This document shows, piece by piece, positions 4,897 through 63,317 of a stretch of DNA of 64,000 bases; position 1 is the stretch's first letter, and each line of letters begins with the position of its first letter. A program made the position numbers and the translations under genes. The notes beneath the pieces are model-generated. The model made no database searches, was not told where the DNA came from, and was given only the letters and a program-made list of their open reading frames with translations. Where the stretch lies: contig JAFDYT010000008.1 in assembly GCA_018266055.1 (NCBI GenBank), positions 90,862 to 154,861 on the forward strand. The letters are read 5' to 3'. Source of the DNA: Bacteroidota bacterium. Lineage in GTDB: Bacteria; Bacteroidota; Bacteroidia; Cytophagales; Cyclobacteriaceae.

Positions 4897-4910
4897 AGAT
4901 TATCAGATTA

Positions 4911-5699: not shown

Positions 5700-5711
5700 T
5701 TTCTACAATTT

Positions 5712-6851: not shown

Positions 6852-6981
6852 ACAGGACCCATTCTTGGAAAGGATGTGAAGGCGATGATAACGGGTTTCA
6901 TTTTCTCCCGTCGTCGTAATAAGGTGAGAAGTGATAAAGTTCGTTTGGAACGTTCTTTTTTTCCTGTGAATCGTTTAAAAA

Positions 6982-8332: not shown

Positions 8333-8591
8333 AGCTCGTCATTCCCGATGCGGGCGTGTATTGTGATAGGGTCAAAGGAACAGGGTGTTGATTCGAACTT
8401 CGATTCAATTGATCTGGATCGATCAAATTAACAGTTTAAGTGCCCAATATCCCCGCTAAAAGGATGACGTAAGTTATTGCTCGTTTTGTTCCACGTATGC
8501 CTGTCGATGTTTTCGAACCGTCTGTTCTGAAAATAGAGCGTTGTGCCTTTTTTTGTTCGGCACGTTCAAATCGTGATGATATCTTTACACG

Positions 8592-10659: not shown

Positions 10660-10685
10660 GTTTATCAGGCGTGGCGGAAAGAGGT

Positions 10686-10735
10686 AAGGCGTTGTTGTTG
10701 TCGACTGGTAAGACAGCAGCACGCCTTTTTTTTTT
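10686..10735 (+). terminator. Rho-independent terminator
   Basis: An AAGGCG...CGCCTT stem, extended by GTTGTTGTTGTC pairing imperfectly with GACAGCAGCAC, is followed directly by an uninterrupted run of T. It lies 26 bp after the lipoprotein stop codon and 14 bp before the next ATG, so the hydrolase downstream needs its own start signal or read-through. Confidence 0.8.
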
Positions 10736-10748
10736 GTGAGTTCAAATT

Positions 10749-11963: not shown

Positions 11964-11983
11964 TAGTTCTGTAGAATAACGGT

Positions 11984-12859: not shown

Positions 12860-12983
12860 AAGGATTTAATCCTGCATAAATTCGGTCGCAGTTCGACGAT
12901 GTTAAATGGATAAATAGCGAAGGGTTTAAAAATCGCTTCGTGTTGCACTTTTTTTCCTTCGATCCGAAGGTGTGAATACGGAG

Positions 12984-14072
12984 TTATGCCCTGATCAATG
13001 GGATATCTAACTCGACGTCCGTTCCCCTGGATTGGTTGTTCTTCAAGCGAAGATGGAAGTCATCCTGGTACACATGCGATAGTCGCGAGTACACATTGCT
13101 GAGGCCGATGCCTACTTTGAAATTCGGCTTCACCGGGATACCAGCACCGTCGTCGCGGATGTTGATACGAACGCGGTCAGCTTCCTGCCTTACGATGACC
13201 TCTATCAGACAGTTGTGAGCGTTCTTAGAGAAACCGTGCTGGAATGCATTCTCAACGAGCGGTTGCAATATAAAAGGTGGCAATTGGGCATCAAGAAGGT
13301 CTTGCTGAGCGTCGATGTTTATCTTGAGGCGATCGGAGAATCTTATTTGCTGGATCGACAAGTACTGTCGCGTTATATCCAACTCGTGGCTCAACGAAAT
13401 GAATTGTTCCTCAGCTATATCGAGAGTTTGCCGCAGCAATGAACTAAGATTTGTTAACATCGCAATCGCTTTGTCATTCTCTTTGTCGAGGAGCATTCCG
13501 ACGATGGCCTGGTGCGTGTTGAAAAGAAAATGCGGCTGCACCTGCATTTTGAGCGCTTTTAATTGGGAGATGATCACCTGTGATTGTAGGGCCAGATTTT
13601 GAAAATTCACCTGCTGGGTATATTCAACATAGGCGATACCTTGCGCTAACACAACAATCGCACTGTACACGACTAACCTCGTACCAAACCCTTCCGGGAA
13701 CAGCGTAGTGAATATTTCACTAATTCCGATCGGCAAATGAATAGCGTAGCGAATGCAGTAGTTGGCGAACGATTCAAGGCTAAAAAATACGATCAAGGTT
13801 CCGACCGCATGCAACACATGATACGAGATTTTTTGGGCGAGAAGCGGAGGTTGTAGAAGATAGCCCAGGGAGAATTGAATAACACGAGGTGCCAGGACGA
13901 TCCAGACTAGCCACGGAAGGAACAGGAAGATGATTGAAGGTATGTCTGGCCATCCCTGGTGGTTAAAGATTCTGAAAATAATATTCCCCGAAACATAAAG
14001 CAGTCCAATTAATATCCATACGGGAACCTGGTAACGCATCGAAATAAGTTGACTCGGCTTTGTCATTGTCAT
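12984..14072 (-). CDS. LytS-like sensor histidine kinase, no LytTR partner adjacent
   Basis: The 362-residue protein has about four membrane helices (residues 16-145), the motif QVQPHFLFNTHQ (H181), N-box LQPLVENAFQHGF and glycine loop KVGIGLSNVYSRL. It is closely related in layout to the kinase at 5712-6851. It lies 46 bp downstream of the preceding permease gene and is likely co-transcribed with it. The expected response regulator is missing; the next gene (124 bp downstream) encodes an AraC protein. Confidence 0.9.
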   Translation of the reverse strand: MTMTKPSQLISMRYQVPVWILIGLLYVSGNIIFRIFNHQGWPDIPSIIFLFLPWLVWIVLAPRVIQFSLGYLLQPPLLAQKISYHVLHAVGTLIVFFSLESFANYCIRYAIHLPIGISEIFTTLFPEGFGTRLVVYSAIVVLAQGIAYVEYTQQVNFQNLALQSQVIISQLKALKMQVQPHFLFNTHQAIVGMLLDKENDKAIAMLTNLSSLLRQTLDIAEEQFISLSHELDITRQYLSIQQIRFSDRLKINIDAQQDLLDAQLPPFILQPLVENAFQHGFSKNAHNCLIEVIVRQEADRVRINIRDDGAGIPVKPNFKVGIGLSNVYSRLSHVYQDDFHLRLKNNQSRGTDVELDIPLIRA

Positions 14073-14118
14073 TGTACTATCCGGTGGTTGTCAATTCTAG
14101 TTAAGGTGTTTTTTTTGT

Positions 14119-16485
14119 TTATCGTGTGCCATTTCCACCATTCACAAAGATTGGATCGCCTTTCGGATATAGGTTCGCAAGTCTCCATCCGGCCACCCGA
14201 TAGATGAGCAGGATAAGGGAAAGTTCCAGAACGCCCACAACGACAAAAACCAGTGGGTTGAGTGGCGCATAGACGGCGTATTGATTAAGCCAGAACAACA
14301 TCATCCCGAGTGAAGCAGGCAAAGCCAGGACGACTGCCACGACAACGGCTCTGATGTCCGGTTCTTCGAAGCTAAAAGAAATCAATCTCTCACCTGCAAC
14401 CCCAAGTAATGTGAATATCAACGCAAAAGCTGCAAAACAAAATAGCACATTATTAAACTGGGCCTCTTTGCAGTAAAGGTCTTCGATGTACACTTTCATG
14501 GGTGTCAACTCGAAGTCAAATTTTACGTCACTTTTAATTGCGACCATCGCCTGGCGCAGTGTGGAAAAATCTGCATTGGATTTTATGAAAAAGAACCTGG
14601 GAGGAGCGTTCGATTGTATGAACATGATGGATTTCAGTGGCTCTTTTATTGAGTTGTAAAAGAAATCATCGACAACACCCGTCACTGATAATGGAATCAA
14701 CCGGTCGTCGTTATCCCAGTATAAATTATTAATGGCGATGTGCTGCCGTTCTAGTTGTGCCTCGGCTTGATGGTTTAGCCATGCTGTTTGAACAGGGTTC
14801 GTCGGATCAATTACATCATTGTTCGGACTTCTGGGCTGAACATGTAACCCGAAAATCCGAAAAAATCCGCTATCAATTCTAAGTTCACTCACGCTGAGCT
14901 GCATTTTCCGGGTTCCATCAAATACCGGGTTCCGATTCAAATAGCCTCCTGGAATATTGCTTACTCCTGTTATGCCGGTGACTCCGGGAAGTTGCCTGAC
15001 TGCCGAGGTAAATGCGATCGATTCGCTGGGTTTCATACCCGGTGAACGAATGGTTACCAGGTAAATATCTTCTCTTGCCAGGCTGGCTGCGGGCGAAGTC
15101 ATAAATTTTCGTTGCTTCCAGACACCCAGCGAGAAGCACACCAGGCATGTTGTACTGAATATTTGAATTGCCAGGAGCATTCTTGAAACATAAAGGCCGG
15201 GCGTTTTGGTGACAACTGCATTCGGAGACCTGCCATCACGCGTGTATCGCATTACGTAAAGAAAGTATGCGATGCTTCCGGAGAATAGCAAGAGCATACA
15301 AATGGCAACGATGCGGCAAAGGAACAGCCATGCAGAAATGGAAGAATAAAAAGGCGGTAGTTCGACGATATAATAAACTAAGGGATTGAACGCGTAGAGA
15401 AAAATAGTTGCGAGTACAAACGAGATCGATGGAAGTAAGAACACTTCCGGTAGGAAATTAAGAATCAATTGAGGGTCCGATGCGCCAATGGATCTATGTA
15501 AGATGACATTTTTGATTTGAACCTGTGTAATCCGGATCCAGTAAGTCAGGTAGTTGACGGTGCCAGCGAGAAGGATCAGGAACAGCGCGCCTCCAATAGT
15601 GTAAAGGTATCTTAGACTGATGGTGTCGTGGAGTTCCCAAAGGATTGTGCTGGTGGTGTGTATTTCATCGAGTGGTTGGAGCTTGAAACCGTATTGTTTT
15701 TGAATGATCGTTGCCTCTTGTGACTTTGCGAAATCATTGGCGGCTATAAGCGCGCCGGTCATATTCTTCTCGATGTCGTTTATGTTTGCCTTTTGATCGA
15801 GTTCTACATAAATATAATGCCCGAAATCTGGCCACTGAAAAAATGACTCCCGTTCGAATTCACGGCGAAGCCATTCATACGAAATCACGGCATCGAATCG
15901 CAGATGGGAGCCGTAACCGATATCTTCGAAAACACCTGCGACTTCGAACGGCGTTTCGATTGCATCTAATTTGAGAAGTTTGCCGGTTGCACTTTGATTT
16001 CCAAAATATTTGCGGGCGGTCGTGCGCGAGATCATCAGTCGCGGACCTTGGGTAGTGAGGCTGTCTGCGTTTCCGTCTACAAGGTTGAAATCGAAGACCC
16101 GGAAGAAATCATGATCCACCGCGATGATATTTTTCTCTTCAGATGCCAGGCCATTGGCAGGATTTTCAAAACGCACAGTTCTTCTATTCAGTCCCTCAAC
16201 CCAAAGTGGCGTGAGCGAGGTAGCTCCTTTAACTCCGGGTTGCGACCGTAACACTTTGACGAGTGGATACGGAGTGCGGGACTGGGAAGAGCTATCGCTC
16301 CAGATAACGCGATAAATGAGATCGTGATTTTTGTGAAACTCTTCGAAACTGGTCTCTGTGTCAACGTAGCACCAAAGCCAGGCACTTACCATCCATGTTA
16401 GTGATAGGCCGGCGACCATGATAAGGCTTAGGGTCTGATTTGCACGCAAAGAACGCCAGGCTGTTCTGAAATATAGAAGGTCCAT
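14119..16485 (-). CDS. MacB/FtsX-family ABC transporter permease, divergent, with shortened C-terminal FtsX domain
   Basis: From ATG 16485 the protein (788 residues) has the double MacB layout: TM1, MacB periplasmic domain, FtsX helices, TM, second periplasmic domain, FtsX helices. The first FtsX block keeps a worn version of the coupling loop (NVILHRSIGASD in place of the usual EIGVRKSVGA). In the second block the loop that normally reads like KEIGIRKVLGA followed by a helix is missing: LLGVAGERLISF runs straight into FEEPDIRAVVV. The intact paralogues at 21645 and 45667 retain it. It has no ATPase neighbour. An upstream in-frame ATG at 16524 adds unconserved residues. Confidence 0.88.
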   Translation of the reverse strand: MDLLYFRTAWRSLRANQTLSLIMVAGLSLTWMVSAWLWCYVDTETSFEEFHKNHDLIYRVIWSDSSSQSRTPYPLVKVLRSQPGVKGATSLTPLWVEGLNRRTVRFENPANGLASEEKNIIAVDHDFFRVFDFNLVDGNADSLTTQGPRLMISRTTARKYFGNQSATGKLLKLDAIETPFEVAGVFEDIGYGSHLRFDAVISYEWLRREFERESFFQWPDFGHYIYVELDQKANINDIEKNMTGALIAANDFAKSQEATIIQKQYGFKLQPLDEIHTTSTILWELHDTISLRYLYTIGGALFLILLAGTVNYLTYWIRITQVQIKNVILHRSIGASDPQLILNFLPEVFLLPSISFVLATIFLYAFNPLVYYIVELPPFYSSISAWLFLCRIVAICMLLLFSGSIAYFLYVMRYTRDGRSPNAVVTKTPGLYVSRMLLAIQIFSTTCLVCFSLGVWKQRKFMTSPAASLAREDIYLVTIRSPGMKPSESIAFTSAVRQLPGVTGITGVSNIPGGYLNRNPVFDGTRKMQLSVSELRIDSGFFRIFGLHVQPRSPNNDVIDPTNPVQTAWLNHQAEAQLERQHIAINNLYWDNDDRLIPLSVTGVVDDFFYNSIKEPLKSIMFIQSNAPPRFFFIKSNADFSTLRQAMVAIKSDVKFDFELTPMKVYIEDLYCKEAQFNNVLFCFAAFALIFTLLGVAGERLISFSFEEPDIRAVVVAVVLALPASLGMMLFWLNQYAVYAPLNPLVFVVVGVLELSLILLIYRVAGWRLANLYPKGDPIFVNGGNGTR

Positions 16486-49950: not shown

Positions 49951-50517
49951 TTAACCAGGCGACGGTGAATGAAGTGAAATCTGCTCTTGCCTCCAGGGTT
50001 CGGATGTGTGCTTCGATCTGGATAATTGTGGTTCCGTTTTCCCTCGAAGCAGTGCAAAGTTGTCTTTAAATCCAGTTTCGAAAAGAAAATCCACGATGCG
50101 TCCCTCGTCGTTCTCGAATGTCTTGCCGCCAACGTACGCTTTGCCTTTACTTAAAATCACCTCATATGGAAACAAGTGTGTGAGCGTCCACGTGTGGCTT
50201 TGAAAGAATTGTTGCCATTTCTCTTCTTCGGTTGGACTATTCTTTAGTAGCGACTGGTATTGATTTATAATATCCTCAAGATAAATCACGTCCATCTTCT
50301 CCTTGGTTTTTACAACATGCGATGTGGAGGTGATCTTAGTCGTAGGCAGATCGGATAATACAGCCGTCAAAGCATCGATATCTTTGACTGATATCTTATT
50401 GTAAGAGTCAAATTGGCCGAGAAAGTCTTCTAGCTCACCTGACTTAAGTGTGCGAGGTATTTTTGATTGGTTTGGGATGCTACTTCCCAATACAAAACTT
50501 TGAAAAGATGTTAGCAA
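49951..50517 (-). pseudogene. Truncated Shedu-type (DUF4263) defence gene remnant
   Basis: Residues about 80-160 match the DUF4263/Shedu nuclease family: EEEKWQQFFQSHTWTLTHLF, then GKAYVGGKTFENDEGRIVDFLFE and DNFALL. At the place where Shedu proteins carry the catalytic E-x-K (as in IEIKTP) this reads LLRGKTEP, and the frame stops 30 residues later; the remaining C-terminal nuclease half is missing. The N-terminus overlaps mnmE by 38 bp in another frame and has no family features, so the original 5' part is lost too. Shedu is an established single-gene anti-phage system; this copy is very likely dead. Confidence 0.65.
50480..50497 (-). other. mnmE 3'-end sequence resembling the SGI1-family attachment site
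   Basis: The last 18 bases of mnmE, TTTTGTATTGGGAAGTAG on the minus strand, encode F-C-I-G-K-stop. This is the same position as the 18-bp attB of the SGI1 island family (TTCTGTATTGGTAAGTAA in trmE/mnmE). The similarity follows from protein conservation, so it marks a potential site only. I found no second copy in the window. Confidence 0.3.
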
Positions 50518-51841
50518 GCAGATCGTCGGTGGTGACTTCGCCGGTGATTTCGCCGAGGTAATGCAGCGCTTGCCGGATGTCCATCGCCAGGAAATCGCCG
50601 GTGATGCCGCCGTCCATTCCTGACAGCACGCGGTTCAGTGCGTCGTCGGTTTGTTTCAAACTTTGGTAATGCCGCACGTTGGTCACCAGCACGTCGCCTT
50701 GCTTTACTTGGATGTGAAAACGCGAAAGGATCTTGTCTTTCAGTGCCTGAATATTTTTTTTCTGCGACGCAGAGATCAATACAAAATCTTCTTGCTCTAC
50801 TTGCTTCAGCAGGGCAGGAGATGCTCCGTCCATTTTGTTGCCTACATAAATCACCGGAATATTAAGCTGACGGATTTCGTCAGCCTCATGCCTGATTTCT
50901 TCGATGGAGGATTGGGTGAGGTCGAACAAATATAAAATCAGCGAAGCTTTGCGCAGACTTTCGCGCGTGCGCTCTACGCCGATGGCCTCGATTACGTCGC
51001 TAGTTTCACGCAGCCCGGCGGTATCCATAAACCGGAAGCTTATCCCGCCAAGGATCATTTCATCTTCAATCACGTCGCGGGTGGTGCCGGGAATATCCGA
51101 CACGATGGCTCGCTCTTCGTTGAGCAGCGCATTGAGCAGTGTTGATTTCCCCGCGTTGGGTTTTCCTGCAATCACTGTGGGGATACCGTTTTTAATCACG
51201 TTGCCCTGATCGAACGAGCCGATCAACGAACGGAGATACTGCCGGATGTTGTGAATGAGTTTTTTCAGGTCGTCGCGTTTGGCAAACTCTACATCTTCTT
51301 CGCCAAAGTCGAGCTCCAGTTCGATCAGCGAGGCGAAGTGGATGAGCTCTTCGCGCAGGTGTTGAATTTCTTTAGAGAATCCGCCGCGCATCTGGTTGAG
51401 TGCGGCCTGCCTGGCGTTGTCGGTTTCGGCGTGGATGATGTCGGCCACAGCTTCGGCTTGCGCCAGATCGAAGCGACCGTTGAGGAAAGCGCGTTTGGTA
51501 AACTCGCCGGGCGTAGCAAGGCGCGCTCCATTCTTCAGCAGCACTTTGATAATCTCTTTGACAATCACCGGCGAACCGTGACAGGATATCTCAATGCTGT
51601 TTTCTTTCGTAAACGAGTTCGGCTCACGGAAAACGGAGACCAACACTTCATCGATGGGTTTATCGCCGTTGTGTATGGTGCCAAAGTGCAGCGTATGCGA
51701 GGGTTGTTGCGTAAGATCTTTTCCTTTGAAAACCTTTTGCACCAGGCTGATGCAATCCTTGCCCGACAAGCGGATCACCGCGATGGCGCTTATGCCCTGG
51801 GCGGTGGCAAGGGCTACAATAGTTTCGTCGAAGGTGCTCAA
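50480..51841 (-). CDS. mnmE: tRNA modification GTPase MnmE
   Basis: With MnmG it installs the carboxymethylaminomethyl group on wobble uridine 34 of certain tRNAs in the cytoplasm. The 453-residue protein has the N-terminal folate-binding domain (IAVIRLSGKDC, HGSPVIVKEI), helical domain, and GTPase domain with G1 GKPNAGKSTLL, DTAGLR, GNKMD, and the C-terminal catalytic FCIGK. The only in-frame start before an upstream stop is a TTG at 51841. G+C is richer than in the genes to the left. The remnant Shedu gene abuts its 3' end. Confidence 0.97.
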   Translation of the reverse strand: MSTFDETIVALATAQGISAIAVIRLSGKDCISLVQKVFKGKDLTQQPSHTLHFGTIHNGDKPIDEVLVSVFREPNSFTKENSIEISCHGSPVIVKEIIKVLLKNGARLATPGEFTKRAFLNGRFDLAQAEAVADIIHAETDNARQAALNQMRGGFSKEIQHLREELIHFASLIELELDFGEEDVEFAKRDDLKKLIHNIRQYLRSLIGSFDQGNVIKNGIPTVIAGKPNAGKSTLLNALLNEERAIVSDIPGTTRDVIEDEMILGGISFRFMDTAGLRETSDVIEAIGVERTRESLRKASLILYLFDLTQSSIEEIRHEADEIRQLNIPVIYVGNKMDGASPALLKQVEQEDFVLISASQKKNIQALKDKILSRFHIQVKQGDVLVTNVRHYQSLKQTDDALNRVLSGMDGGITGDFLAMDIRQALHYLGEITGEVTTDDLLANIFSKFCIGK

Positions 51842-51860
51842 AGGAAGCTGGTTAAAGTCA

Positions 51861-51868
51861 CAAAGCTA
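51861..51868 (-). promoter_or_regulatory. Candidate -7 promoter box for mnmE
   Basis: On the minus strand TAGCTTTG matches the Bacteroidota -7 consensus TAnnTTTG and lies 19 bp before the TTG start of mnmE, within the 3' neighbourhood of the transporter gene. No TTTG is seen at the -33 position. Confidence 0.4.
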
Positions 51869-51873
51869 GTCAA

Positions 51874-53757
51874 CTATCGCACGATGAGTACAGGGATGTG
51901 TACGCGGTGTCGTACAATATCTACCGTAGTGCCAAACACCAGATCTTTGGCCCAGTTGTGTCCGTGGGCGCCCATCACGAGCAGATCCGCTTCGAAGTTG
52001 TTGACGATCTCAGGAATGGTGCGGCGCGGGTTGCCATAGCCAACTTTTACTTCCACGCGGTAGCCTTGCGCCTGCAATTGCGCGGCGTAGTCGTTGAGGG
52101 CAGAGGCATCTTCATCCGCTTCGCGGTCGGCAATTTCACTTCCATACCACATGGCGCCGGCTGTTTCTACAATGTGCATCAGGATGTACGAAGCATTTGG
52201 TCCACCTTGAGCCAAGGCGCTTTGAATCGTTTTAGCATCTACCGAACTAAAGTCTAAGGTGATAGCGATCTTTTGATATACCGGTCGCACCAGTTGGCTA
52301 AGGTCTACGGCCGTGCCGTGCGGCAAACTGTTTTTGTCTTGTCTGCGCCGGTCGAGGATAGGCTTGAAGGTGATGTACAATAATAATGCACCAATCGCCA
52401 GACACGCCGGAATCACCAGCAGCCAGATGATCCATTCGTATTCGCCGCTGTTGGCAAGCCAGTTCATAATTTCCTGCATCACCAGCTTCACATTCAGTCC
52501 GATAATAATCGCCGCGATAGCCCATGCGCAGATTTTCATCCACGGTTTGATGACAAACACGCCCATCTTCTCTTTGTCGCTGGTGAAGTGGATGAGCGGA
52601 ATGATGGCGAAACCTAATTGCAAGCTGAGGATCACCTGACTGAGTACGAGCAGCGAACCAGTTTTGTCTTCTCCATAATATAGGATCACAAAATAGGCCG
52701 GGGTAATAGCGATCAGTCGGGTGATGAGGCGACGCAGCCATGGTGCAATGCGCAGGTTGAGATAACCTTCCATGACTACTTGTCCCGCAAGGGTTCCTGT
52801 AATGGTCGAAGATTGCCCCGCTGCGACGAGCGCTACACCAAAAAGAATAGAGGCCCAGTTGGTGCCTAATAAGGGAGCGAGGAATTTGTATGAATCCTGT
52901 ATGTCGGACACTTCGTACATGCCTGCGCGGAAAAAGGTAGAAGCCGCAAGGATGAGAATCGCCGAGTTGACAAAGAATGCTGCGTTGAGCGCGATGGTAG
53001 AGTCGATGAGGTTGTATTTAATAGCCGACCAGATTCCTTTTTCGCTGGTGTCGAAGCGACGCGTTTGCACCAGCGAGGAGTGGAGGTAAAGATTGTGCGG
53101 CATGACTGTGGCGCCGATAATCCCGATGGCGATGTACAGCGCTTCGTTGGTAGGCAGCGACGGGATAAATCCTTTCGCCAACTCGTCCACCGCAGGTTTT
53201 GCCCAGATCATCTCCATGAGAAAGGAAACACCGATGATCGCGACAAGCGCAATGATAAAGGCTTCGATCTTGCGCATGCCGTAGCTCTGCAGAATGAGCA
53301 GCAGCAAAGTGTCAAGCACGGTAAGGGTGACGCCCCAGATCAGCGAAAGTCCGAACAACAACTTTAATCCGATGGCCATGCCCAATACTTCGGCGAGATC
53401 GCAGGCGGCGATGGCAATTTCGGCCAATATCCACAGGCAGAAGTTAACGCCGGGATGATAGGTAGTGCGCGAGGCTTGCGCCAGATCGAGTTGTCGCACT
53501 ACGCCGAGCCGCGCGCTGAGGCTTTGCAGCAGCAATGCCATCAGGTTAGACATCAGCAACACCCAGATCAGTGCGTACCCAAACTTACTGCCGCCAGCAA
53601 TATCCGTAGCCCAGTTGCCGGGGTCCATGTAGCCTACGCTGACGAGGTAGGCCGGCCCCAGAAACGCCAGAAGCTTACGCCATCCTTTGCGGCTGGTCAC
53701 ATCTACCGACGAGTGTACTTCACTCAGTGATTTTCGTTGTGTAAAGGCGCCGTTCAT
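51874..53757 (-). CDS. mntH: Nramp-family divalent metal transporter fused to a universal stress protein domain
   Basis: Residues about 25-455 are an Nramp transporter with eleven or so helices: DPGNW (45-49) in TM1 and MPHNLYLHSS (M219-H221) in TM6 supply the metal site for Mn2+/Fe2+ import driven by protons. Residues 496-627 form a cytoplasmic UspA domain ending GAHGHNWAKDLVFGTT, which fits the ATP-binding G-x2-G-x9-G-T motif. The fusion suggests nucleotide- or stress-dependent control of uptake (inference). It begins one base after the mntR stop codon, so the two are one operon. Confidence 0.93.
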   Translation of the reverse strand: MNGAFTQRKSLSEVHSSVDVTSRKGWRKLLAFLGPAYLVSVGYMDPGNWATDIAGGSKFGYALIWVLLMSNLMALLLQSLSARLGVVRQLDLAQASRTTYHPGVNFCLWILAEIAIAACDLAEVLGMAIGLKLLFGLSLIWGVTLTVLDTLLLLILQSYGMRKIEAFIIALVAIIGVSFLMEMIWAKPAVDELAKGFIPSLPTNEALYIAIGIIGATVMPHNLYLHSSLVQTRRFDTSEKGIWSAIKYNLIDSTIALNAAFFVNSAILILAASTFFRAGMYEVSDIQDSYKFLAPLLGTNWASILFGVALVAAGQSSTITGTLAGQVVMEGYLNLRIAPWLRRLITRLIAITPAYFVILYYGEDKTGSLLVLSQVILSLQLGFAIIPLIHFTSDKEKMGVFVIKPWMKICAWAIAAIIIGLNVKLVMQEIMNWLANSGEYEWIIWLLVIPACLAIGALLLYITFKPILDRRRQDKNSLPHGTAVDLSQLVRPVYQKIAITLDFSSVDAKTIQSALAQGGPNASYILMHIVETAGAMWYGSEIADREADEDASALNDYAAQLQAQGYRVEVKVGYGNPRRTIPEIVNNFEADLLVMGAHGHNWAKDLVFGTTVDIVRHRVHIPVLIVR

Positions 53758-53758
53758 G

Positions 53759-54412
53759 TTACTCGGTAACTAAAAGGTTTTTTGAAACTTCTTTAGATAG
53801 GAATACCCGCTGTCCGTCGAGCAGGGCTTCCATCGATTCGTCGTAGGCTTCACGAGCCAGGATTTTGATTTTCTTCCCCGGTCGTGCGCCGATTTTGTCG
53901 AGCAACTTGAGCAGGGAAGAGTCTGAATCTTTCACCGCGGTGATCACCGCCTGCCGACCTTCTTTTAGTTGATCGCAGCCGATGGTGTTTTGCTGCGGCA
54001 ATTTTCCTTTGCTGTCGGGGATGGGATCGCCGTGCGGATCGGTTTTAGGATAGTTGAGAAACTCATCCAGTTTCTGAATGAGCAACAACGACTGAATGTG
54101 CTCCAATTGTTCGGCTACGTCGTGTACTTCGTCCCAGGCAAACCCCAGCTTCTGCACCAGAAAGGTTTCCCAAAGGCGATGCTTGCGGATGACCGTAAGC
54201 GCCTCGGCTTTCCCTTTTGCAGTCAGGTTAGCGCCGTAATATTTTTCGTAGCTGATGAATTTCTTGACGGCAAGCTTTTTTACCATGTCCGTAGCCGATG
54301 CTGCTTTGGTACTCATGGCTTCCGCCAGATGGTTGGTCAGCACCGGTTTGGAGCCAGCGTCAGACAAGTGGTAAATCGCCTTGAGGTAGTTCTCTTCTGT
54401 GAAACTGGGCAT
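53759..54412 (-). CDS. mntR: DtxR/MntR-family metal-dependent repressor
   Basis: The 217-residue protein has an N-terminal winged helix (MPSFTEENYLKAIYHLSDAG ... KAASATDMVKKLAVKKF), the dimerisation/metal domain (HRLWETFLVQKLGFAWDEVHDVAEQLEHI, with the usual H/E/C-type ligand positions), and a C-terminal FeoA/SH3-like domain (KKIKILAREAYD). The ATG at 54412 is chosen over the TTG at 54418. It most likely represses its own operon, which continues into the Nramp transporter, when Mn2+ or Fe2+ is plentiful; a matching operator lies just upstream. Confidence 0.93.
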   Translation of the reverse strand: MPSFTEENYLKAIYHLSDAGSKPVLTNHLAEAMSTKAASATDMVKKLAVKKFISYEKYYGANLTAKGKAEALTVIRKHRLWETFLVQKLGFAWDEVHDVAEQLEHIQSLLLIQKLDEFLNYPKTDPHGDPIPDSKGKLPQQNTIGCDQLKEGRQAVITAVKDSDSSLLKLLDKIGARPGKKIKILAREAYDESMEALLDGQRVFLSKEVSKNLLVTE

Positions 54413-54430
54413 ACCCAATAATTTGATTCA

Positions 54431-54458
54431 CAAAAGTAATAATTTAGACGGGTCTAAA
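54431..54458 (-). promoter_or_regulatory. mntR-mntH promoter with DtxR/MntR-type operator
   Basis: On the minus strand TTTAGACCCGTCTAAA (54443-54458) has perfect 7-bp arms around a 2-base centre, the form of DtxR/MntR/IdeR boxes. Immediately downstream, TACTTTTG (54431-54438) matches the Bacteroidota -7 consensus. The operator thus occupies the spacer between -33 and -7, where a bound repressor would exclude RNA polymerase. It overlaps the last codons of the upstream glycosyltransferase gene. Confidence 0.7.
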
Positions 54459-55566
54459 AAAGTCGATCCACAAGGGTAAGCAACTTCTGCTCTTCGGAAG
54501 TCCAGGTTACGTCTTGGGGATTGGAAGTAAAGAAACGAGCGGAACGCATTTGATCGAGCAACGTGTTCGGATCGGGGTGGAGAAAATCAACGGACAAGGA
54601 AGCCGAATACGGCGCACAGAGATCCGTCCATGGCCGGTGATTTTGCAAAAGAATGGGAAGCCGAAGCGCGAGGTATTCGAAGAGTTTAGTCGGAGTTTTA
54701 TTTTCCAGATGAGGCGACATCGGGTAATAAATGATTCCAAAATCGGCGTGAGCAATGGCGTCTATTATGATAGAATGCGGCACCAGATTTTTGCCTCCCG
54801 TAAGGGTAATGAACGAGTTAGCCGCGACTTCTTTTTCGATCAACTTGAGCACGTCAGGTTGCTGGCAATATCCCACGATGTGAAGCTGAATTTTGGGCTC
54901 AATCGCATGAAGCATTTTGGCCAGTTGAATCGCTTCCAGCACACCGGTGCTGTCGGCGAGGGTGCCGGTAAAAACCAACCGAAACCGATCGGGTGAACCA
55001 GATCGAATAAATCCCTCCGGAACGCGGCATTTGTTTTCAATAATGGTGAATTTATTTTTCACGAAAGTGAGCTCGTCGCGATAGCTTTTTTCGGCCAAAA
55101 TAAACTGCGAAATGAACCCCGCACTCACCCGTTCTTTCAGCCGAACCAGGCCGGCAATCAGCGCTCGTGTTCCTCTCGGAAAGGCATTCGTAAAGCGGAT
55201 ATTCCGGCTGTAATTCTCCTGGACGTCATAGAAAATCTTCGTCCCAAATAATATTCTGTTTGCTATCGCAACTCCCAGTAATTCATGGGTAGTAACAATC
55301 AATAGCTCGGGTCTTACTTTAAGGGTAATTTCGAGGGTTTTTAGCCTTGCCATCAACCTCCCGAGGCTAATTCTTCCGAATGCCGGGAACGCATGAAATT
55401 GAATCCGGTCGTCGCTGATTCGCTCGGCTGAAGGGTAGCCAATCACGTGCACCTCATGCTTTCCGGAAGCGGCCAACGTCGCCGCCATTTTTTCGGTCAT
55501 GCGTGTATCGTTCACCGGCTTCAACACCGAGGCAAGGACTATTCTCCTTTTTTTCATTTCTTGCAT
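54454..55566 (-). CDS. Glycosyltransferase (GT-B fold, family 4-like)
   Basis: The 370-residue cytoplasmic enzyme has the GT-B pattern: N-terminal Rossmann half with LIVTTHELLGVA and IFYDVQENY, then the C-terminal donor half with FRLVFTGTLADSTGVLEAIQLAK, IQLHIVGYC, and the E-x7-E-like segment PHLENKTPTKLFEYLALRLPIL. The donor and acceptor sugars are unknown. It is divergent from dapD with only 24 bp between the start codons, so their promoters must overlap coding DNA. Confidence 0.9.
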   Translation of the reverse strand: MQEMKKRRIVLASVLKPVNDTRMTEKMAATLAASGKHEVHVIGYPSAERISDDRIQFHAFPAFGRISLGRLMARLKTLEITLKVRPELLIVTTHELLGVAIANRILFGTKIFYDVQENYSRNIRFTNAFPRGTRALIAGLVRLKERVSAGFISQFILAEKSYRDELTFVKNKFTIIENKCRVPEGFIRSGSPDRFRLVFTGTLADSTGVLEAIQLAKMLHAIEPKIQLHIVGYCQQPDVLKLIEKEVAANSFITLTGGKNLVPHSIIIDAIAHADFGIIYYPMSPHLENKTPTKLFEYLALRLPILLQNHRPWTDLCAPYSASLSVDFLHPDPNTLLDQMRSARFFTSNPQDVTWTSEEQKLLTLVDRLF

Positions 55567-55590
55567 CCTAGTTTAAAAGTAAAACATAAA

Positions 55591-56403
55591 ATGCAACTCC
55601 AGGAACAAATCGAAAAAGCGTGGGCAGATCGTGAGCTACTCAAGTCGGCAGAAACTCAAGCCGTTATCCGCGAAGTAGTGAACCAATTAGACAAAGGAAA
55701 ACTTCGGGTGGCGGAGCCCACCGGCGACGGCTGGAAGGTAAATGAGTGGGTGAAAAAAGCAGTGATTTTGTACTTCCCGATTCAGCAGATGGAAACCATT
55801 GAAGTGGGGCCTTTTGAGTTTCATGATAAGATTGCGTTGAAGAGAAATTATAAAGAATTGGGTGTGCGCGTGGTGCCTCATGCGGTGGCGCGTCACGGCT
55901 CGTTTATCAGCAAAGGCGTAATCATGATGCCGTCGTATGTAAACATCGGCGCGTATGTAGACGAGGGTACTATGGTGGACACCTGGGCTACGGTAGGAAG
56001 CTGCGCACAGATCGGTAAGAACGTTCACCTGAGTGGTGGCGTGGGTATCGGTGGCGTGCTTGAGCCGGTACAAGCTGCTCCCGTGATTGTGGAAGACAAT
56101 GCGTTCATCGGATCGCGCTGTATTATTGTGGAAGGGGTGCGCATCGGCACCGAAGCCGTACTTGGCGCCAACGTGGTGCTTACCGGTAGTTCTAAGATTA
56201 TCGACGTAACAGGCCCCGAGCCGGTTGAATACAAAAACTATGTGCCGGCACGTTCCGTAGTTATTCCGGGTACTATTCCCAAGCAATTTCCGGCCGGCGA
56301 ATTTCAGGTTCCCTGCGCGCTGATTATCGGAAAACGCAAGGAAAGCACCGACAAAAAGACATCGCTGAACGATGCGTTACGCGAAAATCAAATTTCGGTG
56401 TAG
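55591..56403 (+). CDS. dapD: 2,3,4,5-tetrahydropyridine-2,6-dicarboxylate N-succinyltransferase
   Basis: Transfers succinyl from succinyl-CoA to tetrahydrodipicolinate in the lysine/diaminopimelate pathway (cytoplasm). From ATG 55591 the protein has 270 residues, the normal DapD length: helical N-terminus (MQLQEQIEKAWADRELLKSA), then a left-handed beta helix of hexapeptide repeats (VIMMPSYVNIGAYVDEGTMV, GVGIGGVLEP, FIGSRCIIVEGVRIG) and the C-terminal KQFPAGEFQVPCALIIGKR. The open frame extends upstream to 55447 but that part overlaps the divergent glycosyltransferase and is not conserved. Confidence 0.97.
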   Translation: MQLQEQIEKAWADRELLKSAETQAVIREVVNQLDKGKLRVAEPTGDGWKVNEWVKKAVILYFPIQQMETIEVGPFEFHDKIALKRNYKELGVRVVPHAVARHGSFISKGVIMMPSYVNIGAYVDEGTMVDTWATVGSCAQIGKNVHLSGGVGIGGVLEPVQAAPVIVEDNAFIGSRCIIVEGVRIGTEAVLGANVVLTGSSKIIDVTGPEPVEYKNYVPARSVVIPGTIPKQFPAGEFQVPCALIIGKRKESTDKKTSLNDALRENQISV

Positions 56404-56415
56404 CTCGGCACGACC

Positions 56416-56447
56416 TTTGATTCTATGTAGAACTAACTTTAGATTTG
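56416..56447 (+). promoter_or_regulatory. Bacteroidota-type promoter, probably giving a leaderless mRNA
   Basis: TTTG (56416-56419) and TAGATTTG (56440-56447) match the -33 and -7 consensus with a 20-base spacer. The ATG of the DUF3108 gene starts only four bases after the -7 box, so transcription would begin at or next to the start codon. Confidence 0.6.
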
Positions 56448-56451
56448 TAGT

Positions 56452-57261
56452 ATGCGTTGGTCACTGATTGTCATAATCGCCCTGTTCTTTCTCTCCTTTA
56501 CCGATGAGCGGAAGGTAAAGCAAGCGCGCGTGAGCGCCAGCATCACCACCGGCGAGCGGCTCGATTACCGCATGTATCTCGGCTACTTCACCGTAGGGAA
56601 GGGATCGACCATGACCGACAAACGTCTTCATATTAAGAATGATCGGGCGTGCTTCAAAGTAGATGCCTACATGGAAACGCTGGGTATGGCTACCTGGATT
56701 TCGAAAGTAAATGACAACTGGGGTGCGTATGTGGATACCACCGAACTGGTGACGCAGGAGTCGTATCGCAAACTGCACGAAGGCAAATACAAACTGCACG
56801 AAGTGATTACCTACAATCCCGACAGCGACATTGCGGTGGTGAATGTGGCCGACAAGAAAACCGGCAAATTCGGTACACCGAAAGTTTATTCTACGCCTGA
56901 TCGCGTGCGCGACATCGTCGCCGGATTTATGTACCTGCGGATCATCGACTTCTCTAAATACAAAGTGAAAGACACCCTTACCGTGTCCGGATTTTTTGAA
57001 GACAAATCGTATTCATTCAAGATCATCTATTTCGGAAAGGAAGTGGTAGAGACGGAGGTAGGCAAAATCCCCTGTCATAAGCTAATCCCCATCATGCCCG
57101 ACAACGAACTGTTTCGCGGCGAGAATTCCATTACCGCCTGGCTTTCTGCCGATGGCAATCAGATTCCCGTAAAGGTGGATGCGAAGATGTTCATCGGCCA
57201 TGCCGGTACGGAATTGGTGGCCTTCAAAGGGCTGCGCAACCAGCTGAAGATCGTGCAGTAG
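56452..57261 (+). CDS. DUF3108 exported protein
   Basis: The 269-residue protein has an N-terminal hydrophobic signal (about residues 3-17). The DUF3108 pattern follows: ERLDYRMYLGYFTVGKGSTM, CFKVDAYMETLGMATWISKVND, DIVAGFMYLRIIDFSKYKV, and VGKIPCHKLIPIMP. It is a periplasmic beta-rich protein of unknown role, common downstream of envelope genes in Bacteroidota. It has its own promoter, lies after dapD, and is followed by mscL 72 bp downstream. Confidence 0.88.
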   Translation: MRWSLIVIIALFFLSFTDERKVKQARVSASITTGERLDYRMYLGYFTVGKGSTMTDKRLHIKNDRACFKVDAYMETLGMATWISKVNDNWGAYVDTTELVTQESYRKLHEGKYKLHEVITYNPDSDIAVVNVADKKTGKFGTPKVYSTPDRVRDIVAGFMYLRIIDFSKYKVKDTLTVSGFFEDKSYSFKIIYFGKEVVETEVGKIPCHKLIPIMPDNELFRGENSITAWLSADGNQIPVKVDAKMFIGHAGTELVAFKGLRNQLKIVQ

Positions 57262-57333
57262 CCGTCGCTTTTCGTTGGCCTTGAACCCAATCTTTGTTTA
57301 CTTTTAAGGCATTAACCACAAACCTAACTCTAT

Positions 57334-57708
57334 ATGTTAAAGGAATTCAAAGCTTTTGCCATGCGTGGCAATGTAGTCGACCTGGCTGTCGGTGTGATTA
57401 TCGGCGGCGCCTTCGGCAAAATCGTCGGCTCACTCATCGACGACGTGATTACTCCCTTGTTGTTGAAACCGGCACTCGATGCCGCTAACCTGTCGCACCT
57501 CAATGAACTTACGGTATTCGGTACGGTAAAATACGGTGTGTTTCTTTCGGCGGTGATCAACTTCATCATTGTGGCGTTTATTCTGTTCCTGATCATTAAA
57601 GGAATGAACGCTGCCCAACGCAAGGAAGAAGCTAAACCGGCAGCTCCGGCGCCACCGCCTGCCGACATTCAGTTGCTGACAGAGATTCGCGACTTGCTGA
57701 AAAAATAA
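57334..57708 (+). CDS. mscL: Large-conductance mechanosensitive channel
   Basis: MscL opens under membrane tension to release solutes at osmotic downshock. The 124-residue inner-membrane protein has the conserved N-terminal amphipathic helix and TM1 (FKAFAMRGNVVDLAVGVIIG, then GAFGKIVGSLIDDVITPL), a periplasmic loop, TM2 (VINFIIVAFILFLIIKG), and a C-terminal helix (TEIRDLLKK) after an Ala/Pro-rich linker. A terminator follows at once. The leader contains TACTTTTA, a near match to the -7 box, at 57299-57306. Confidence 0.97.
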   Translation: MLKEFKAFAMRGNVVDLAVGVIIGGAFGKIVGSLIDDVITPLLLKPALDAANLSHLNELTVFGTVKYGVFLSAVINFIIVAFILFLIIKGMNAAQRKEEAKPAAPAPPPADIQLLTEIRDLLKK

Positions 57709-57719
57709 AGTACACCAAC

Positions 57720-57752
57720 GTCCTGCATCACCACGGTGCAGGACTTTTTTTT
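57720..57752 (+). terminator. Rho-independent terminator of mscL
   Basis: GTCCTGCA and TGCAGGAC form a perfect 8-bp stem with a 9-base loop, followed by eight T. The next gene's ATG begins one base after the T-run, so read-through or a start within the hairpin would be needed for its transcription from upstream. Confidence 0.9.
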
Positions 57753-57753
57753 G

Positions 57754-58155
57754 ATGAAAGACCTTTTCAAACCGGGTGACCAGAAATCCTTTTCCCGCAA
57801 AGTGGAGGAAAGCGATTGCGCCATATTCAATGGCGAGTTGCTGCACCGGGTGTTTTCTACCTTTTCGCTGGCGCGCGATTTCGAATGGTCGTCGCGACTC
57901 TTTTTTCTTGAACTGAAAGACGACGACGAAGAAGGGGTGGGCACCATGCTTTCCATCGAACACCGAAGTCCGGCGTTTGTGGGCGAAGAAGTACACTTTA
58001 CGGCGACGGTAGAGAAGATTGAAAAAAACGAACTGATCTGCACGATCGAAGCCACAGTAGGCGCCCGCCAGATCGCCGTAGGCAAAACCGGACAAAAAAT
58101 GCTGAAGAAGGAGAAGCTGAGGAGGTTGTTTGGGGAGGGAGGAGATAGGAGGTAG
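57754..58155 (+). CDS. FlK-like hotdog-fold thioesterase
   Basis: From ATG 57754 (133 residues) the protein has the hotdog pattern of the fluoroacetyl-CoA-thioesterase-like family: HRVFSTFSLARDFEWSSRLF, GVGTMLSIEHRSPAFVGEEVHFTATV, then CTIEATVGARQIAVGKTGQ. It would hydrolyse an acyl-CoA in the cytoplasm; the substrate is unknown. The last residues (GEGGDRR) and the stop codon come from the purine-rich repeat that follows, so its 3' end has been replaced or extended by repeat DNA. Confidence 0.8.
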   Translation: MKDLFKPGDQKSFSRKVEESDCAIFNGELLHRVFSTFSLARDFEWSSRLFFLELKDDDEEGVGTMLSIEHRSPAFVGEEVHFTATVEKIEKNELICTIEATVGARQIAVGKTGQKMLKKEKLRRLFGEGGDRR

Positions 58156-59642: not shown

Positions 59643-59912
59643 TGGGAAAGAATTTGTTAAGAACGATTCTTTTTCATCCTCTTCAAATTCCTTACCGGTG
59701 CGCACTACTATATATAGAGTATTGCGGAGAAGCACACGGACGCCATGCGTCAGCGTAGTAAAAGGCAGCCTCCGGAAAGAGAACCTCAGCGTCAGAAAAT
59801 AAATACTACTGAGACAAAGTATAGGTGAGACCTTTATTCCCTGCCCCGGTTGCCTTAAAAACCAAGAAACCCCTTCTTTTTTGCATCCGCAACCCACTTT
59901 TACACAAGTCCG

Positions 59913-60458
59913 ACCGAAAACTGTAGAACTCGTACCGACTTGTGTAGAAGTTGTACCGACTTCTGTAAAAGTTGTACCGAAAAGTGTAGAAGTCGTACCG
60001 AAAACTGTAGAACTCGCACCGACTTCTGTAGAAGTTGCGCCGAAAACTGTAGAACTCGTACCGACTTGTGTAGAAGTTGTACTGAAAAGTGTAGAAGTCG
60101 TACCGGAAAGTGTAGAAGTCGTACCGACTTCTGTAGAAGTTGTATCGAAAACTGTAGAAACCGTACCGAAAAGTGTAGAAGTCGTACCGAGAACTGTAGA
60201 AGTCGTACTGAAAAGTGTAAAAGTTGTACCGACTTTTGTAAAAGTTGTACCGAAAAGTGTAGAAGTTGTACCGAAAACTGTAGAAATCGCACCGACTTGT
60301 GTAGAAGTCGTACCGAGAACTATAGAAGTTGTACCGGAAAGTGTAGAAGTTGCACCGACTTGTGCAGAAGTTGTACCGACTTCTGTAGAAGTCGCACCGA
60401 AAACTGTAGAAATCGTACCAACTTCTATAGTTGTGCGACGGGAAACTGTAGAAATCGT
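59913..60458. repeat. Minisatellite: 26 exactly phased copies of a 21-bp unit
   Basis: Every unit is 21 bp with no insertion or deletion over 546 bp. The general form is ACCG, then a variable 5-base block (AAAAG, AAAAC, ACTTG, ACTTC, GAAAG or GAGAA type), then TGTAGAAGT or close to it, then a 3-base end such as CGT/TGT/CGC. Two flavours alternate irregularly; in ACTTC units ACTTCT-GT-AGAAGT is a small hairpin. Because 21 is a multiple of three, at least four of six frames stay open. Plus-strand readings include heptads V-P-K/T-S-V-E-V; minus-strand readings include G-T-T-S-T-x-x. No start signal or export sequence supports any reading as a gene. Confidence 0.95.
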
Positions 60459-60956
60459 ACCGACATTCAAAAAAGGCCTTCAGGATTGAAAATTGGGGCT
60501 TCCCGCCCTTATTGCATCGCTACCGGGGCGAGTAGTGGTGCGCGCCACCTGAGTTTGTCCGTATGTCAGGTTAATGGTATCCGTAATGGAACTAAGTATG
60601 GTACGTCTTTGCATTCAGTGAGTACAGCCTCCTGTGATTGCGCCCGTGCCGGAAAGAATAATGATTGGGCTGGCAACCACAGACTATGCAAAGAGCCGGT
60701 TGAAAACCACGCCCGGTAAATAATATGTATAGAGTGATTCATTCAATCATCCAATCATTCGTCATTCATTCATTGCTTCTTGCCAAATTCTACCTCATCC
60801 CCGCCAATTACCTGCCCAAACCTGCCGAATGCTAAGTGGCGTTGGAGAGGAGAAGATAAAGAGGTATTTTGGAGGAAGGAATTTCAAGCCTAATACACCT
60901 AATTATGTCAAGTAAATATTGATAGTTACTAATGCCAGGTCTATTAAAATAAGGTA
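60459..60956. other. Gene-free region after the minisatellite with a short ATTC/AATC tract
   Basis: About 500 bp. One plus-strand frame that runs through the array continues to 60719 (GTSLHSVSTASCDCARAGKN) but looks like decayed coding DNA. A simple-sequence tract of ATTC and AATC units lies at 60736-60774. The sequence becomes AT-rich from about 60880, ahead of the ATPase gene; no clear promoter box is seen. Confidence 0.5.
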
Positions 60957-62252
60957 ATGATGAGAAAAATAAAAAAAGTACGAATTGATGGGTTCTGGGG
61001 AGATAAGTCTGTCTCACTCAATTTCACAAAGGACATAAATTTTTTAATAGGTGTAAACGGGTCTGGGAAGACAACCATAATTAATTTAATAGCAGCTAGT
61101 TTAAATGCGGATTTCGCGACACTAGATAAAGCTCAGTTTACAAATATACGTGTTGACTTTTTTGATGCAGACGATAAGCAGGACAAGTCAACAACTTATA
61201 TTGTAGTTGAAAAAACTGATAAGGAGAATTCTCCTTATTCTAATATTATTTTTAGAATAAAGACACCTAGTGAAACTAAAGTTAAAACGTTTAAGCTTAA
61301 CGAACTCGAAGAAGAAGGCTTATTTCGATATCCAAAGGATTATTTAATCCATAAAATACACATGCAAAGCGGACAAATAGAAAGAGATATAAATATCTCC
61401 TTAAAAGATATTGTTAATTTAACTTGGCTATCCATTCACCGTACGAGTGGGCATAATCGTACAATCGACGATAAAAGCTTTGAATCGACAATTGATCAAA
61501 AAATAAAAGAACTTTCAACGGACTTGATTAAATATTTCGGAGTTCTTGATAGAAGATACTCCTTGGAAACTGAAAAATTCCAGAAAAATATTTTTATGTC
61601 ACTAATTGAAGAAGAAAAAGAGGCTAATGTTCTTAAAACTGATGATCTCGAATCCGAAAAGGAAAGAGAATCATTACGTCAAATTTTTCTATTATTTAAA
61701 TTGAAAGAGTCGGAATTTTCACAAAAGCTGGATTCGCATTTTAAGAATTTTGAAAATGCAAAAGAAGAATGGGCTAATAATAAGGCCATAGATACAAAAA
61801 AACTAACTTATATCTTAGGTACAAGAAGAATACACTCTATAGTTCAAGAATGGAATAGATTGAATGAAAAGAAGAACAATATAAATAAACCCAAATTCAC
61901 TTTTCTAGAAGAGGTTAACCAACTATTTAGAAGGAAAAAAATATTTATAAACGAGCGTAATGAATTGTTAGTAGAAACGCAGAGTGGGAAAATATTTCCA
62001 TTAATACACCTTTCCTCTGGAGAAAAACAATTGTTAATTATTCTTGGACAGGGCCTACTTCAGGAAAACAATAGTCACGTTTATATTGCTGATGAGCCAG
62101 AATTATCTCTTCATGTTGAATGGCAAGAAAAATTGGTAAGTAGTCTTAAAAATGTTAACCCTAATTCACAAATAATATTTGCAACTCATTCGCCTGATAT
62201 TGTTGGTAGATTTAGCGAGTCTGTAATTAAGGTGGAGGAGGCGATAAAATGA
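60957..62252 (+). CDS. AAA-family ATPase of a PARIS-like (AriA-type) defence pair
   Basis: The 431-residue protein is an ABC/SMC-like AAA ATPase: Walker A GVNGSGKT (32-39), central helical region (about 150-330), signature LSSGEKQ (352-358), Walker B IADEPE (D379, E380), and switch H411 in ATHSP. This is the layout of AAA_15 and AriA proteins. In PARIS the ATPase forms a cage that holds the AriB effector and releases it on sensing a phage anti-restriction protein. The next gene, whose ATG overlaps its stop (ATGA), encodes a DUF4435 protein as required. Codons are strongly AT-rich, unlike the genes at 50-58 kb, pointing to horizontal transfer. Confidence 0.8.
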   Translation: MMRKIKKVRIDGFWGDKSVSLNFTKDINFLIGVNGSGKTTIINLIAASLNADFATLDKAQFTNIRVDFFDADDKQDKSTTYIVVEKTDKENSPYSNIIFRIKTPSETKVKTFKLNELEEEGLFRYPKDYLIHKIHMQSGQIERDINISLKDIVNLTWLSIHRTSGHNRTIDDKSFESTIDQKIKELSTDLIKYFGVLDRRYSLETEKFQKNIFMSLIEEEKEANVLKTDDLESEKERESLRQIFLLFKLKESEFSQKLDSHFKNFENAKEEWANNKAIDTKKLTYILGTRRIHSIVQEWNRLNEKKNNINKPKFTFLEEVNQLFRRKKIFINERNELLVETQSGKIFPLIHLSSGEKQLLIILGQGLLQENNSHVYIADEPELSLHVEWQEKLVSSLKNVNPNSQIIFATHSPDIVGRFSESVIKVEEAIK

Positions 62253-63139
62253 GTGGATTTAGAAGAACAATTGGCGGCCTTAGTAATCAACATTTATTTT
62301 TTAACGTTGATTTGATAGTGTTTGTAGAGGGTGGCAGCATGCAATTCAATAAAGAACAAGTTTATGCTGGCAGATATTCTGATGATACTGAGGACATAAT
62401 TTTTTGGGATAATATTTTTAAAAAATTTAGGCCTGACCTGAAAATTAAATTTAAATCAATTGGCTCAAAAAAAACCATCAGTGATATAGTTTTGGATTTA
62501 ATTGAAGGAGAATTAAAGACAGTTATGGTTGCTATGGATAGCGAGTTTGATGAATTGTTGAATAGAAAAACTGAGTACCCTGGTATTTTTTATACTTATG
62601 GTTATAGCTGGGAAAATGATGTTTGGAATCAGGATGTTATAAAAGCTATTATTGAAGAGTTAACTGCTGTAAAAATTGAAAACCAGGACATTGAAAATAA
62701 TTTTAATGATTTTTTAGATAAGATTAAAGTAGCTGTTTATGCTGATGCTTATTTATTCAAGGATAATTCTTCGTTTTTCAATAGAAAAAAAGGCCTAATG
62801 TTTTGTGTTGATTGTGACCCTGTTGATTTACCTTTAGTTCAATCGATAAAGATTGACGATAAATTCAATGAAAAAGGAATTACAAAAAGAAAGGCAATGA
62901 GGTATGGCAACAAAATGGGCATTAATACTTTACAATTTTGCTACGGACATTTGCTTGCAGATTATTGCTGTCTAGTGGTTCACCATTATTTAAAAAAGAG
63001 GCATTCATTGACGAATTTATCAAATGCAATAATATATAGAATGAGCATTAAAAAACATTTTGACCTCAGATTTGATGGTAGCAACTTGCATGCATATTAC
63101 TCAGATCAGTTTAAAAAAATTGGAACTAACCCCAACTAG
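62249..63139 (+). CDS. DUF4435 TOPRIM-like effector of a PARIS-like (AriB-type) defence pair
   Basis: The 296-residue protein carries the DUF4435/TOPRIM signature: catalytic glutamate E27 in IVFVEGGS, then an acidic D-x-E-x-D set at D97, E99, D101 (AMDSEFDEL), and YSWENDVWN, followed by a helical C-terminal domain. In PARIS, AriB is a nuclease that, once released, cleaves a host tRNA and aborts infection. All acidic residues expected for activity are present. It overlaps the ATPase gene by four bases; a 25-bp dispersed repeat includes its stop codon. Composition is strongly AT-rich. Confidence 0.78.
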   Translation: MSGFRRTIGGLSNQHLFFNVDLIVFVEGGSMQFNKEQVYAGRYSDDTEDIIFWDNIFKKFRPDLKIKFKSIGSKKTISDIVLDLIEGELKTVMVAMDSEFDELLNRKTEYPGIFYTYGYSWENDVWNQDVIKAIIEELTAVKIENQDIENNFNDFLDKIKVAVYADAYLFKDNSSFFNRKKGLMFCVDCDPVDLPLVQSIKIDDKFNEKGITKRKAMRYGNKMGINTLQFCYGHLLADYCCLVVHHYLKKRHSLTNLSNAIIYRMSIKKHFDLRFDGSNLHAYYSDQFKKIGTNPN

Positions 63140-63159
63140 CGCAAGTCTTAAGCAAGTGC
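63135..63159 (+). repeat. 25-bp dispersed repeat, copy 1
   Basis: Begins ACTAGCGCAAGTC and ends AAGTGC; includes the stop codon of the DUF4435 gene. A second copy with three mismatches lies at 63844-63868, after the next lipoprotein gene. Confidence 0.75.
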
Positions 63160-63317
63160 ACGTGCATGAGCGTGACTTATGCCTTTATCACCACTCTTTA
63201 CATCCGTTGATTAAGCTGTTTCAAAATGGTACCTTGGCAAAGCGTAAAAGGTATATGCAATATTGCATTGAGCTGGATGTTATGTGCAAGTTTGCCGACT
63301 ATTAGATAAAACAAAAT

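Follow-up and report, generated by a model that had tools for sequence, protein, structure and literature searches.

The closest described system is PARIS, in which the ATPase AriA and the nuclease AriB are encoded side by side and whose mechanism is set out in PMC11455837. An excerpt of Rousset et al. (2022; PMC9122126) gives Pfam cut-offs for PARIS of 32 bits for AAA_15, 27 for AAA_21 and 27 for DUF4435. For the E. coli system, the sections of PMC12409363 consulted state that the AriB substitution E26A abolishes tRNA cleavage, that K60 and K64 are required for defence, and that R28 contacts tRNA in the published AriB model. The second body of relevant work concerns integrons, whose integrase IntI is defined by an additional domain (passages of PMC2426708 and PMC9668308). 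Integrons have been termed biobanks of phage defence in Vibrio in the part of a review consulted (PMC12409362), which also cites the defence cassettes of Vibrio and of mobile integrons (Darracq, Kieffer, Getz 2025), while a survey with IntegronFinder 2, again seen as an excerpt (PMC9024848), reports that integrons are rare in Bacteroidetes.

The locus described here lies near the right end of the window, the whole 64-kb stretch of DNA that was analysed. Its two genes resemble PARIS of E. coli B185 in their order, in pairing an ABC ATPase with a DUF4435/TOPRIM protein, in carrying equivalents of E26, D90 and E92 and in passing the Pfam cut-offs; they differ from it in being distant in sequence, in an insertion within AriB, in the lack of a K60 counterpart and in a putative cassette setting. 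Fused AriAB (PADLOC PDLC02982) has the same two domains and occurs as cassettes at two loci (L117, L118) from members of the window's class and phylum, but as one polypeptide, whereas the window has two genes. We read the pair as a divergent PARIS system, with AriA as sensor ATPase and AriB as TOPRIM nuclease, that was probably gained as a single cassette of two genes within an integron-like array, and we place the probability of this reading at about 0.65.

Identity and genomic setting of the gene pair

A preliminary description had assigned the pair to the AriA/AriB architecture and proposed a comparison with AriA and AriB profiles. In that comparison the best PADLOC match of the ATPase was AriA (E 5e-41), with PtuA next (E 3.8e-25), and the best match of the DUF4435 protein was AriB (E 1.5e-12). 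The ATPase scored 73.4 bits on AAA_21 and 68.8 on AAA_15 and the second protein 42.6 on DUF4435, all above the published cut-offs, which were applied together with the requirement that the genes lie side by side. A search of the PDB with the ATPase retrieved solved AriA (8ux9_B, E 2.9e-17). The corresponding single-sequence search with the DUF4435 protein found no AriB, and a profile of 16 DUF4435 relatives matched solved AriB (8ux9_A, E 1e-5). AlphaFold models of AriB built from a single sequence and from three sequences had pLDDT values of 35.6 and 37.8, too poor for use or for searching. The assignment to AriA and AriB is supported by the profile matches, and there is good support for regarding the pair as PARIS-like and divergent.

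Conservation was examined in two alignments that included the window proteins. Among 12 ATPases, the Walker A residues G32, N34, G35, G37 and K38, the signature (L352-E356) and Walker B (D379-E382) were invariant, in agreement with the intact motifs noted earlier. Among 16 DUF4435 proteins, E27, D97 and E122 were invariant, while E99 and D101 were present in the window AriB and variable elsewhere; the four acidic residues pointed out before (E27, D97, E99 and D101) are thus all there, and E122 had been absent from that list. Window E27, D97 and E99 align with E26, D90 and E92 of solved AriB, the numbers being counted from the printed alignment, and D90 and E92 are probably catalytic. By the same kind of count, E. 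coli K64 aligns with window K74 and the K60 segment has no counterpart. The insertion of 18 residues directly follows E27. An insertion of some length at this place was observed in 4 of the 16 proteins and was absent from the other 12; those of two relatives (L005 and L007) equal the window's within about a residue, and that of a Pantoea protein (L012) is shorter. Because the insertion adjoins the place of R28, the tRNA-touching residue of the published model, it is reasonable to guess at an altered choice of tRNA by the window AriB, and the insertion and the missing K60 segment together suggest that this choice may differ from that of the E. coli enzyme. By homology, AriA rings would keep AriB inactive until AriA binds a phage-encoded protein that is probably a DNA mimic with anti-restriction function; AriB would then be freed, and its dimers would cleave host tRNA and stop translation.

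Both genes lie on the + strand and overlap by ATGA. Their G+C contents are 31.4% (AriA) and 30.5% (AriB), compared with 50.7% at 50480-58155 and 45.3% in the whole window. The repeat-rich zone beside them, at 59906-60463, is a 21-bp tandem array of 26.6 copies that is open in several frames; a repetitive stretch at L074 4362-4903, upstream of the integrase on contig C12 described below, looks similar to it. Four genomes of the same genus (L142-L145) remain syntenic with the window up to about 58131 (two genomes), 57710 (one) or 57261 (one), and the shorter scattered matches past these points are read as chance. Since synteny ends before the pair, the pair lies in accessory DNA. An empty-site comparison provided only this left limit: 10 of 60 genomes had the right-hand gene, and where both genes occurred, our own genome apart, the listed places were on other contigs or far apart. 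The overlapping genes, their low G+C content relative to the genes at 50-58 kb and the neighbouring repeat zone had all been reported in the preliminary description and were found again, and the lateral acquisition that it proposed is supported. Its interpretation is thus supported in part, for the identity of the pair and for its acquisition, and the att-type repeats downstream and the cassette array had gone unnoticed.

Borders of the unit and tests of the window copy

Features of the window around the AriAB unit
Feature	Position	Strand	Basis
Leader (attI-side flank), common to three other places in the genome	60778..60882	+	identity matches
Left border and 5' leader of the AriAB unit	60883..60956	+	comparison with L076
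AriA-like ABC/AAA ATPase, 431 aa	60957..62252	+	PADLOC AriA; Pfam AAA_21/AAA_15; PDB 8ux9_B
AriB-like DUF4435/TOPRIM protein, 296 aa	62249..63139	+	PADLOC AriB; DUF4435; profile match to 8ux9_A
18-residue insertion, AriB residues 28-45	62330..62383	+	16-protein alignment
First half of dispersed repeat, starts TAGCGCAAGTCTTAAG	63137..63205	+	7 matches in 20 kb
Second half of repeat, related to 3' end of C12 integrase gene	63200..63284	+	match to L074
att-core-like site TATATGCAATATTGCATTGAGCTGGATGTT, 3 mismatches in 30 to consensus	63252..63281	+	consensus scan
Next array unit, lipoprotein-like ORF (by eye), 171 aa	63318..63833	+	no Pfam match at E 1

The leader upstream of the pair recurs twice on contig C20, at L076 2344-2448 (84.8% identity over 105 bases) and near 185.5 kb (L078; 87.1% over 62 bases), and once on C8 (L079; 86.1% over 101 bases). 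All three matches stop at 60882, which marks a sharp border, and the genes that follow differ from place to place: L076 has a unit behind an intact core (site folding z +0.47), and L078 and L079 have ORFs with signal-peptide-like starts, as judged by eye. As the leader is shared and other genes stand behind it elsewhere, AriAB occupies the first position behind a shared leader, with AriA starting 74 bases past it. In these 74 bases the att core expected by comparison with L076 was not found at up to 9 mismatches. A cassette start at GTTGGAG (60838) was considered and dropped, this stretch being part of the shared leader.

On the right-hand side, the AriB stop codon TAG constitutes bases 1-3 of the repeat (start TAGCGCAAGTC). 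In the 20-kb region L037 this repeat had seven matches at up to 3 mismatches, the AriB copy included, where 0.32 were expected. All seven are on the + strand; by position, five follow a + strand ORF, one follows a - strand ORF (10469-10951) and one has no ORF of its own, and the ORF at 7883-8668 has no copy behind it. A search of the genome with one copy gave 28 matches over nine contigs. Over its second half the repeat corresponds to the tyrosine integrase gene of C12 at its 3' end, together with the att-like site that follows: the window copy is 70.8% identical to L074 2729-2824 over 96 bases (E 5.9e-5) and a sister copy matches at 78.7% (E 3e-14), and tblastn with the integrase end matched sister copies and not the window copy. 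The att-core-like site within this half is the only one at up to 9 mismatches on both strands of the 64 kb, against a best of 9-12 mismatches in ten Markov control sequences of 14 kb each, with a consensus that was picked by eye after reading the sequences and statistics that lean towards the cassette claim to that extent. The candidate att-type flanks of the unit are a leader without a recognisable core on the left and a core on the right.

The window copy itself gave negative results in the cassette tests. Its ends were not complementary, ranking 11 of 11 cassettes (p 0.97 versus shuffles), and its repeat folded no better than shuffled sequences (z +1.13 for the window and +0.22 for L037). 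The 11 cassettes of the ranking were chosen by eye, and their permutation result (0 of 20000) leans towards the cassette claim. No integrase of the C12 type was found near the window on C20, and the one proposed to have acted is on C12. On the preferred reading, a tyrosine integrase of this kind would have inserted the cassette behind the shared att leader and the insertion site would have decayed since; the copy in the window looks decayed. The pair may be a mere neighbour of the array, but its arrival as a cassette is likely.

PARIS relatives in cassette arrays

A pattern scan of genome contigs found three loci with a close AriB (61-66% identity; L005, L006 and L007), and in each of them AriA precedes AriB. 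The named relatives are Bacteroidota MAGs, which points to this phylum for the window's genome as well. In overlapping samples of 194 relatives, 395 members of the class and 395 members of the phylum, no other close AriB was found and matches were weak and partial. Peptide patterns revealed no close relatives in viral contigs, none was found in phage records, and a plasmid search gave four distant records.

In L007 an integrase (3544-4587) is directly followed by AriA, which begins at 4718. The cassette ends GTTATGCCCCATTTT and AAAACGGGGCATAAC match at 14 of 15 bases, and the locus's own end ranked 1 of 11 with p 0.024 versus shuffles, a value uncorrected for its being one of 16 loci tested (18 given); the folding z was -3.10. 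The interval between the integrase stop and the AriAB cassette (4588-4680) contains a very stable hairpin (z -5.70). The pair of L005 has attC-like palindromes on both sides, as seen by eye, with weak folding (z -1.71 and -1.04) and ends that ranked 4 of 11 (p 0.289 versus shuffles), and at E 0.001 its AriB had no match among the PADLOC families. Between L005 and L006, AriAB (4500-7100) is identical, and the two sequences are near-identical from about 3.1 kb onwards. They are not one contig, as the upstream parts differ and the first kilobase has no match; this could reflect the swapping of a unit upstream, a recent transfer or faulty binning. The two contigs are filed under Chitinophaga and Chryseobacterium MAGs. 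At another locus (L002), a strong inverted match (score 29) was rejected as cassette ends, its letters being read as an intrinsic terminator.

The fused form was found in two arrays. L118 has a canonical IntI (401.8 bits versus the NCBIfam cut-off of 265), attC repeats and nine pattern-found cassettes, all with matching ends, one of which is the fused AriAB. Here the cassette ends averaged 7.78 of 8 compared with 4.18 for other ends (0 of 20000 permutations), in a test with fixed patterns that were themselves written after reading that array. By its IntI, attC repeats and complementary ends, the fused AriAB of L118 is an integron cassette. In L117 repeat copies flank the fused AriAB, and the integrase in front of it shares 64% identity with the L007 integrase; a rule-based test caught three cassettes there, missed the AriAB one and found no excess (6533 of 20000). 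L117 also contains two copies of an element with a 512-aa ORF (11604-13448 and 14054-15899; 98.6% identical) at attC-like repeats, one of which directly follows the AriAB cassette.

A wider survey found 26 other DUF4435 loci, of which L011 was dropped for three stops in frame. Among the remaining 25, some of whose regions end at contig ends, 2 (L117 and L118) lie in arrays that have an integrase no more than about 10 kb away. L134 had a weak integrase match (31%, E 5.5e-11). L132 and L141, in which repeat copies flank the DUF4435 gene, were rejected as cassettes: neither an integrase match nor cassette-type ends were seen.

A candidate integrase platform and the alternative readings

Behind the C12 integrase stand units of one ORF each; each lies between long palindromes, and the complementary ends are specific to the cassette (z -4.32 for the folding of one such site). 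An array of the same form in genome G008 includes one cassette with 17 of 18 matching end bases and a hairpin site (z -2.37). Integrases of the C12 type were detected in 42 of 62 same-genus genomes, our own included (E 1e-40). The 54 matches listed include 35 in minus orientation, and for 16 of the 35 fewer than 500 bases separate the end of the match from the contig start, which is the side on which cassettes would lie; none of the 19 listed plus-strand matches begins that near a contig start. Such a pile-up is what would be expected if repeats behind the integrase broke the assembly. Further arrays of the window's genome, in which ORFs are followed by copies of the att core and of the integrase 3' end, were observed at G000:C10:210280-212548, C19:1-14000 and C20:1-9200, and one of the C19 copies codes for 23 residues that agree exactly with the end of the C12 integrase.

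These arrays share with canonical chromosomal integrons (IntI, attI, attC) an integrase followed by ORFs, palindromic sites between them and ends complementary at GTT/AAC. They differ in the integrase: those of C12, L007 and L117 leave about 60 residues of IntI4 unmatched before position 243, between two aligned stretches, and score 196, 203.9 and 211.4 bits on TIGR02249, all under the cut-off of 265; they lack the IntI-specific segment. The G008 integrase reaches 225.2 bits on this model in two stretches, and that of L117 exceeds the cut-off of NF040815 ('site-specific tyrosine recombinase/integron integrase') with 231.6 versus 220. We see roughly even odds that these arrays represent an integron-related cassette-capture platform, common in the genus and present in other members of the phylum, whose Xer-like tyrosine integrase lacks the IntI-specific domain. 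The integrase gene would hold the att site at its 3' end, and the platform would have carried complete PARIS operons from one lineage to another.

Two alternatives concern the setting of the pair. It could be a PARIS operon of the ordinary kind, located in AT-rich accessory DNA of lateral origin that happens to adjoin the repeat array, the array having had no part in its arrival. The failure of the window copy in the tests of terminal complementarity and folding is consistent with this, as are the 23 of 25 other DUF4435 loci that lack an array plus integrase. Yet the pair is bordered by the shared leader on one side and, on the other, by the first copy of the repeat, which takes in the AriB stop codon; the relative in L007 adjoins an integrase and has cassette ends that match. 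We regard an ordinary operon as unlikely. The downstream repeats might instead be miniature or relic elements spread by some other process rather than recombination sites, as their dispersal over nine contigs and the lack of hairpin folding in the window type could indicate. This has a similarly low chance of being correct: in its second half the repeat agrees with the integrase 3' end and the att site next to it, and in the related arrays of C12 and G008 the attC-like sites are of the hairpin type and the cassette ends match.

The remaining alternative concerns function. An ABC ATPase with a DUF4435 nuclease could serve a non-PARIS role, acting on a different nucleic acid or responding to a different signal in the manner of OLD-, Septu- or retron-type systems, and the additional matches to PtuA profiles, a likeness to solved AriB at the profile level only, the 18 extra residues next to the active site and the lack of a K60 segment all leave room for it. 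We consider this slightly less probable than either alternative above, since AriA and AriB are the best PADLOC matches, the AriA match of the ATPase lies 16 orders of magnitude above that to PtuA, and E26, D90 and E92 are kept. Acquisition of a divergent PARIS system as a cassette thus remains the preferred reading, and the position of the pair at the head of an integron-like array suggests that such defence may be gained and passed on in this form.

As in the integrons of Vibrio and the mobile integrons, insofar as the excerpts describe them, anti-phage genes would here be kept as cassettes; the hosts are different, the unit is a two-gene PARIS system, and the integrases of L007, L117 and C12 are without the IntI-specific segment. 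In the parts of the open-access literature consulted, no description was found of PARIS as an integron cassette, and the 2025 integron-defence papers cited in PMC12409362 may contain PARIS; nor was a description found, for this phylum, of such integrases without the IntI-specific domain. If a two-gene abortive-infection system does travel as one cassette, the biobank idea would come to include PARIS and a further phylum. Cassette movement by the platform without the IntI domain is putative: if such integrases move cassettes, searches that require the domain would miss a whole set of arrays.
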